The notes under the pieces are model-generated. The model had not been told where the DNA came from, did not search any database, and saw nothing but the letters and a program-made list of their open reading frames with translations. This document shows positions 58,041 through 58,633 of a stretch of 64,000 nucleotides of DNA, piece after piece. Each line of letters begins with the position of its first letter. Positions within the stretch are counted from its first letter, which is position 1. Location: contig NZ_JAJUWU010000003.1 of the NCBI RefSeq assembly GCF_021390325.1, positions 1-64,000 on the forward strand. The letters run 5' to 3'. The position numbers were made by a program, and so were the translations under genes. Source of the stretch: Jiella avicenniae. GTDB lineage: Bacteria; Pseudomonadota; Alphaproteobacteria; Rhizobiales; Rhizobiaceae.

Positions 58041-58633
58041 ATGGCGTCGCCAGCCAGTGGCCGCGGCAGCCGATGGATCCCGCCGAAGCGCATCCGGCCG
58101 ATCGCCATCGGCCTGTGCGTCGAGGACCGTCACGTCCTCCTGATGGAAGTGCTCGACGCCGAGGGCAGGCTCGTCGGTCACCGGCCGCCGGGTGGCGGCA
58201 TCGAGTTCATGGAAAGCGCGGAAGCGGCGGTGACGCGGGAGTTAGAGCGTCCTTTGTGCGTCCAATCGGACGCACAAAGGACGCTCTAAGCCATTGAATC
58301 TACGGATCGTGCTTTCCGAAAATCGATTCCGATTTTCGGGCCGATCCTGTAAAGGAAGAACTCGGCTGGCAGATCGCGGCGCCGCGGCTTCTTGCCACCT
58401 GCGAAAACCGCTTCGAGCACGATGGCCGGCCCGGCCACGAGATCGTCTTCATCTTCGCCGTCGAGCGACCGCAGGATGGGTCGCCGCCGCGAGAGGCCGG
58501 GCGCATCGACGTCGTCGACGGGGGGGTGGACGTGGTGATCCGCTGGATCCCCGTCGAAGAGGCTCTTGCCGGGGTGCTCTTCCCGCCTGCCCTGGCAAAG
58601 CTTCTCGCCGAGCGAGACACAGGGGGAGAATGA
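58041..58633 (+). pseudogene. Nudix hydrolase disrupted by a palindromic insertion
   Basis: The first part (to about 58244) reads a Nudix domain up to GGGIEFMESAEAAVTREL. A 107-bp insertion (58245-58351) adds a premature stop. The domain then resumes as EELGWQIAAPRLLATCENRF and RPGHEIVFIFAVERPQDGSP to a stop at 58631. Joining 58244 to 58352 recreates RELKEELGW, the full Nudix box, showing the gene was intact before insertion. Confidence 0.9.
58245..58351. mobile_element. MITE-like palindromic element with TA duplication
   Basis: The insert holds a perfect 22-bp inverted repeat (58242-58263 with 58268-58289; four-base loop) and a second perfect 10-bp hairpin (58316-58325 with 58330-58339). 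It is flanked by TA on both sides (58243-58244 and 58350-58351), as expected for a 2-bp TA target duplication. No transposase is encoded. The 105-bp body matches no other site I noticed in the window. Confidence 0.85.

Follow-up and report, generated by a model that had tools for sequence, protein, structure and literature searches.

The window analysed here, a 64-kb stretch of DNA from the marine bacterium Jiella avicenniae, carries a Nudix gene whose Nudix box is interrupted by an insert. The 5′ part of the gene (58041..58244, + strand) reads in frame up to the residues ...TREL; in the ORF listing, the frame opening at 58041 (58041-58289) is terminated by a TAA of the insert at 58287-58289, giving a product of 82 aa. 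Coding resumes 3′ of the insert with EELGW at 58355, in a 3′ part (58352..58633, + strand) that runs to a TGA. The two halves matched adjoining positions of the Pfam NUDIX profile, 3-52 and 53-119, with 17.6 bits for the 5′ half and 20.8 bits for the 3′ half (over 58352-58630), each below the curated cut-off of 21.1 bits. The Nudix box has the motif GX5EX7REUXEEXGU. It can be read in the window only across the split, while the two genes aligned with the 5′ half (L022 and L023) have it whole in form, with F as the residue after RE.

Orthologues in J. pacifica 40Bstr34 (G004) and J. pelagia HL-NP1 (G005), adjoined by thrS as in the window, were uninterrupted and had no insert at the aligned place; the 3′ half shared 79% identity with the J. 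pacifica gene and 76% with that of J. pelagia. Together with the early stop and the restart at EELGW, this bears out the broken Nudix gene of a preliminary description made from the window alone. At the aligned places GAG TTC ACC GAA and GAG TTC GCG GAA in the relatives face GAG T-TA...TA-AAG GAA in the window, a net gain of 107 that corresponds to the 107 bp announced earlier, namely a 105-bp body and one TA. An empty TA site had also been anticipated in relatives; the orthologues are indeed uninterrupted, but neither has a TA at the aligned place (TTCACC in J. pacifica, TTCGCG in J. pelagia). Among the ten genomes of the genus searched, own genome included, the 3′ half matched strongly in these two relatives, weakly in G009 (38% identity) and not at all in the six others, and the gene is therefore taken as dispensable.

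The window gene is distant from the two relatives (dS of 0.573 and 0.795). The dN/dS values of the broken copy (0.216 and 0.141) are close to that between the relatives themselves (0.147), hence the break looks recent on that scale, in line with the recent, non-autonomous insertion first proposed. The apparent conservation of the halves would also agree with a split gene that still gives a useful product, comparable to the Rickettsia palindromic elements found within proteins. We consider this extremely unlikely, given that 107 bp is not a multiple of three, that the frame ends inside the insert, with a stop at 58287 in place of in-frame readthrough, and that the conserved catalytic motif is itself split. 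Since the insert shifts the frame and brings an in-frame stop, the gene is almost certainly inactive and, as judged from its reading frames, the Nudix function would have been lost through the insertion.

The element is short and carries no transposase gene. Its 105-bp body (58245..58349), in which the left arm is 4 bp longer than in most other copies, lies between a left TA (58243..58244), also the last two bases of the 5′ Nudix part, and a right TA (58350..58351). Two perfect hairpins had been claimed. Hairpin 1 (58242..58289) is so, with perfect 22-bp arms (58242-58263 and 58268-58289) around a 4-base loop, its left arm being "perfected" relative to nearly all other copies. In hairpin 2 (58301..58351) perfect pairing is limited to the inner 10-bp arms (58316-58325 and 58330-58339), and the outer stem is bulged. 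The fold energy was -45.3 kcal/mol compared with -13.3 +/- 2.6 kcal/mol for shuffled sequences (z = -12.4; none of 200 shuffles as stable). A GANTC site (58325..58329, GATTC or GAATC according to strand) starts at offset 22 from the right TA and comprises the last stem base and the loop of hairpin 2; a second one (58296..58300, GAATC or GATTC) is located in the linker at offset 51. In the window as a whole, GANTC has a density of 1.56 per kb, and 0.95% of 80-bp windows contain two or more.

The body recurs, as had been predicted, in its own genome and beyond. Nine near-full-length places were found in the own genome, window copy included, two of which (L007 and L008) were identical in the compared stretch; one other own-genome copy showed 100% identity over 96 bases. 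All ten genomes of the genus, own genome included, gave matches: 21 in the own genome, at least 65, 44 and 65 in G001, G002 and G003 respectively and 3 to 8 in each remaining genome, counts which include partial and palindromic self-matches (40 candidates were scored in each of G001-G003). Among public plasmids, 340 of 72,556 records matched, 249 of them from Rhizobium and 78 from Sinorhizobium. The order- and class-wide searches, in which no more than 4 candidates were scored in each genome, provide lower bounds: at least 12 of 199 genomes of the order matched, own included, with 5 of 7 sampled genomes of its family and one weak match (E 2.9e-9 to 7.3e-4) in each of 7 further genomes outside the family; at least one of 190 genomes of the class matched, the own genome, in a sample holding few genomes of the order. 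Two plasmid records, CP070278.1 ("Dysgonomonadaceae", 246,192 bp) and NZ_CP066788.1 (Martelella lutilitoris, 246,197 bp), gave equal matches and have the same source, which suggests a mislabelled record.

We assembled 61 distinct copies, 56 of them full length. The right TA was present in 43 of the 56 and the left TA in 42, the latter count resting on a fuzzy pattern that itself contains TA; 30 had both. Copies are thus generally TA-flanked, and not devoid of the dinucleotide. In a set of 63 full-length copies, GANTC occurred at offset 21-23 in 49 and at offset 48-54 in 51, the site at 22 being conserved no better than the neighbouring bases. An Rfam search gave sub-threshold matches only, to RF02600 (Brucella sRNA CI27), to CI408 and to a microRNA family, and a small RNA identity was not adopted. 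The RF02600 matches lie at or over element copies, in the window (58199-58359) and in L002, L003, L004, L055, L079 and L084, and the Brucella sRNA CI27 family may be, or may contain, a repeat of this kind.

Filled and empty sites were compared on Rhizobium plasmids. Between kdpB and kdpC in the Rhizobium leguminosarum group, alignment showed the element in WSM1455 and GLR17 and an empty site in TP23 (CGCCTAAGG) and 3841 (CGCCTGAGG). The filled site reads CGCCTA-element-TAAGG, with flanks nearly identical between filled and empty strains; one of the two empty strains has TG instead of TA. Among the best 60 of 252 matching records, two aligned as a single piece (one being the query) and the next 27 in two pieces with a span 103 to 105 bp shorter, two of these 27 being included in the base-level alignment. 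A second site, between genes for an acyl-CoA dehydrogenase and a DUF4126 protein, exists in three states: empty in R. indicum, occupied by another TA-flanked palindromic element alone in R. johnstonii 3841 and R. laguerreae WSM1455, and occupied by both elements on the same TA in WSM1689 and OyaliB, with one differing junction base. The family thus inserts at TA with exact 2-bp duplication at two polymorphic Rhizobium plasmid sites. The target duplication first suggested for the window is thereby established for the family; at the window site itself it is deduced from the net gain of 107 and the flanks.

Several further features of these sites were recorded. At kdpB (L144/L149-L151) and at the second site (L145/L152-L155), the element occupies the TA of the upstream stop codon and leaves TAG, so that the upstream gene keeps its stop. 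The second palindromic family, seen in L153 at the acyl-CoA dehydrogenase/DUF4126 site, measures 105 bp with its TAs and has GANTC at 16 and 22 from its right end. To the right of the copy L002 (from about 1597 onward), a palindrome TAGAGCGGGATGA...TCATCCTGCTCTA directly abuts the element; its ends are similar to the ones seen in the multicopy IS630 of Jiella pelagia, no GANTC was found in the 130 bases examined, and it is possibly another mini-element.

The left arm of the window copy is unusual. The left arm is short in nearly all copies (typically TAGAGCGCCGTGCGTCC), and only two of the 56 full-length copies, the window copy (L001) and L079, have a long one (L067 was also flagged by the script, through a misfit). 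The long arm is a mirror image of the right one, without a mismatch in the window copy; in L079 two bases close to the loop break the symmetry. The perfect arm could be ancestral, since a perfect palindrome might lose 4 bp once and the shortened form then spread. We find this unlikely, as so few copies have the long arm and the aligned Rhizobium copies are also short-armed. Moreover, a private variant in the right arm of L079 (G001:C22), CAGAG for CAAAG, recurs mirrored in its left arm. Such mirrored arms, the L079 variant included, fit the outcome of template switching in a quasi-palindrome, as far as the consulted extracts on that process describe it, and most likely the left arm of the window copy would have been rewritten from the right arm by template switching within the hairpin. 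The altered left end may have immobilised this copy.

We then considered the ends of the element. The preliminary description had pointed to an IS630-like transposase with matching ends, and one was indeed present in the own genome (L052), with closer ones in relatives: these elements belong to the IS630 family, measure about 1.05 kb and have TAGAGC-type ends, and their transposases were identified with NCBIfam NF033545 and Pfam DDE_3. Elements of this type were also found on named plasmids of Bosea, Martelella, Microvirga, Rhizobium, Hoeflea and Azospirillum. Thirty DDE_3 loci of the genus were examined and TAGAGC-type end pairs assigned in 11; for L052 another TA pair scored higher, and the TAGAGC pair, also given by the end-letter rule, was chosen. 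Among 10 plasmid IS elements both ends were found in 7, the exceptions being L135, L139 and L140. In L105 a run of A marks the junction of two reading frames, an arrangement known from elements that use a programmed frameshift.

The family ends TAGAGCGCCGTGCG and TACAGCATCGGCCC each agree in 12 of 14 bases with some real IS630 end, a level reached by 4 of 1288 background TA sites. With end profiles built from 30 IS630 elements and a background of 2331 TA sites, the family right end scored 25.2 on the proximal profile, where real ends had a median of 24.4 (14.9-34.9) and the background peaked at 16.0, and no background site was as high; after removal of the GANTC columns it scored 15.2, again with none of the 2331 as high. 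On the distal profile the family left end scored 9.6 (0/2331), compared with a median of 20.5 for real ends (1.9-28.1) and a background maximum of 9.4; on the proximal profile it scored 11.7 (1/2331). As it scores on both profiles, it is IS630-like without clear polarity by itself. In the window copy, the right end (58324..58351, read inward on the − strand) scored 18.6 (0/2331), or 8.5 without the GANTC columns (15/2331). Its left end, at -4.9 with 78 of 2331 background sites as high, had no IS630 match, owing to its different left arm. Apart from the first ~12 bases and the GANTC sites, the element shows little base-by-base similarity to the IS630 elements compared.

Hence the element is very probably a miniature transposon derived from an alphaproteobacterial IS630-family parent that landed at a TA in the Nudix box. 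From its letters, the right half looks like the leader of a TAGAGC-type IS630. The repeat as such is most likely an internally deleted IS630: it would consist of about 60 bp resembling the parent's transposase-proximal end joined to a short other end, and an IS630 transposase could have mobilised it in trans. Its entry into the Nudix box would then have hit a dispensable gene, causing the frameshift and contributing the in-frame stop. At an E value of 0.001, no DDE_3 match was detected in G001 and G003, both rich in copies, and the present-day source is missing there. The other IS630 of the own genome, L053, with TACCAAC ends, was rejected as direct parent, since the consensus ends match those of L053 and L111 at 5 of 14 positions at most.

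Two other modes of mobilisation were weighed. The element is rich in hairpins and dispersed, as would be a REP-type palindrome moved by a RAYT, an IS200-like Y1 transposase acting on hairpins. Such an origin has next to no probability in our estimation: Y1_Tnp matches were found in only two of the ten genus genomes (G003 and G009) and in none of the own genome (G000), G001 and G002, the latter two being rich in copies, and neither a two-base TA duplication nor IS630-like ends would be expected. Mobilisation by another TA-targeting family, for example IS427-type IS5, is also quite improbable. IS711 of Brucella, of this type, duplicates TA (at YTAR) and is reported from inside a Bru-RS1 repeat (PMC3163539), and GANTC is present in IS5 leaders too; against this, the right end of the family exceeded all 2331 background sites on the proximal IS630 profile, in a comparison that covered IS630 ends.

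The IS630-derived element probably belongs with the RIME1 and Bru-RS repeats of the Rhizobiales. RIME1 (Rhizobium-specific intergenic mosaic element), reportedly described by Osteras in 1995, is said to have a similar length and two palindromes. The likeness is by description, and similar copies were met on numerous plasmids of both Rhizobium and Sinorhizobium; the nesting of insertions on a single TA suggests an explanation for the mosaic look of RIME-like repeats. Bru-RS1 and Bru-RS2 of Brucella are presented as palindromic repeats of 103-106 bp (PMC10800456, PMC3163539). Again by description, they are alike in size and palindromes; the weak match to RF02600 (Brucella sRNA CI27) stayed below the cut-off. 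In the extracts consulted, publications linking RIME- or Bru-RS-type repeats to IS630 were not found.

By its described features the element also fits the CIR (CcrM-associated intergenic repeats; Chen and Shapiro 2003, via PMC2229807), consensus letters being no part of the comparison. In the relevant parts of this 2007 review, CIR are alphaproteobacterial repeats of ~110 bp in many copies, known from Caulobacter, Brucella and relatives, in which two long inverted repeats form two arms with a linker, GANTC lies at or in the terminal loop and TA is found at the termini (PMC2229807). The window element has the length, the two-armed fold with linker, a GANTC partly in the loop and the TA termini. 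The same parts give no terminal inverted repeat and no intragenic copies for CIR, mark the target duplication with "?", leave the mechanism of mobility to be ascertained and state that no role of GANTC had been determined (PMC2229807). In contrast, the family of the window has IS630-like ends, a TA duplication, an intragenic copy and a GANTC likely derived from IS630. With our results, CIR-type repeats gain candidate parent transposons, as well as filled and empty sites that show an exact TA duplication.

Elsewhere, the review describes RUP of Streptococcus pneumoniae as a non-autonomous element of 107 bp with TA targets and IS630-Spn1-like ends, and Correia/NEMIS and ERIC as small elements that end in TA, duplicate their target and fold into stable stem loops (PMC2229807). 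RUP thus shares length, target and end type with the window element, by description and in another lineage; Correia/NEMIS and ERIC differ, again by description, in forming one end-to-end stem loop as opposed to the two arms of CIR, and in their hosts.

The GANTC sites were further examined in the IS630 transposons themselves. Among 94 alphaproteobacterial DDE_3 loci, 38 had TA[GC]AG[CT] ends at 1030-1080 bp, a rule based on end letters and length in which GANTC had no part; the 56 left out had other end types, lay at contig edges or were fragments. The 38 elements formed 30 clusters at 90% identity and 25 at 75%. In all 30 non-redundant elements a GANTC started at offset 22 from the transposase-proximal TA, and in none from the distal end. 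Its middle base was A in 26, G in 2 and C in 2, with GA-TC constant. A further GANTC was present at 28-46 in 21 of the 30 and at 52-61 in 27. The first 80 bp contained 84 sites (in 2400 bp) versus 16.7 expected from their own dinucleotides, the middle of the elements 7 in 26,817 bp versus 133 expected, and the last 80 bp 6. Control words were counted in the first, middle and last portions (AGNCT 11/66/15, CTNAG 6/39/5, TCNGA 28/84/12), and none occurred at offset 22. In the 29 elements where a mechanical search found a likely start codon, it lay at 66-95 in 28 and at 53 in the other, so most GANTC sites lie upstream of it. The other IS630 group (L053, L111) has leader GANTC at 20, 31 and 54. 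Among 39 non-alphaproteobacterial loci, one (L238) had ends fitting the rule; its first 100 bases, with the ends as chosen separately, were free of GANTC.

The own genome encodes CcrM (best NCBIfam match NF050803, 629.6 bits for a cut-off of 830, with a RAMA domain). A CcrM gene was found in 17 of 18 hand-picked genomes with GANTC-leader IS630 (G065 being without), and no full-length CcrM, apart from one partial 44% match, in seven likewise hand-picked small alphaproteobacterial genomes with DDE_3 transposases. In four of the latter (G029, G067, G019 and G033) the IS ends were of other types and the first 100 bp lacked GANTC, in a tally leaving out G015 (ends uncertain) as well as G014 and G150. 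This contrast between the genome sets may reflect kinship instead of CcrM.

Upstream sequences were also compared for 19 transposase genes and 34 other genes hand-picked from three 50-kb plasmid stretches. Within 110 bp upstream, each of the four IS630 genes had between two and four GANTC (11 in total); the same count gave 5 for four IS5 genes, 3 for 11 other IS genes (two of them before one IS110 gene) and 8 for the 34 other genes, none of which had two or more. In the four IS5 transposase genes, of two kinds of IS5 (L260 3271-4104, 9879-10712 and 41568-42401; L261 16190-17524), GANTC lies 37 or 39 bases before the start codon. A fixed leader GANTC may therefore not be confined to IS630.

What these sites do can be read in two ways. 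Leader GANTC could be binding sites for the transposase or RNA polymerase, methylation playing no part, a possibility we hold for doubtful but substantial. The fixed spacing from the end (22, 28-46, 52-61) would also suit a protein-binding array or a promoter, and the GcrA-like context YGAKTCK (PMC8725594) is rare, in 4 of 84 sites. Less expected of binding sites are the variable middle base at offset 22 with GA-TC kept in 30 of 30, the depletion in the middle of the elements (7 sites versus 133 expected) and the CcrM of the host genomes (17 of 18). Alternatively, and with a chance we put at slightly under even, IS630 and mini-elements of the CIR/RIME/Bru-RS type are timed by CcrM through fixed GANTC sites: these would become hemimethylated once the replication fork passes, and could thereby gate transposase expression or end use. 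CcrM-dependent methylation might thus help control expression of the transposase or use of the proximal end. In the papers on CcrM or GANTC that were searched by term, words for transposons and insertion sequences did not occur; the wider literature search was directed at the repeats and at mini-elements of the IS630 kind.

The position of the GANTC of the repeat thus links it with a GANTC shared without exception by the 30 non-redundant transposons of the parent type, and the sub-threshold RF02600 matches hint that some hairpin repeats catalogued as small RNAs may be transposon remnants. If control by CcrM is true, the GANTC of CIR repeats would be explained as a relic of the parent transposon. 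Dam methylation controls IS10 and IS50, and CcrM timing would then be its alphaproteobacterial counterpart. The outcome is a specific, testable claim on how the cell cycle may control transposition across a large group of bacteria.
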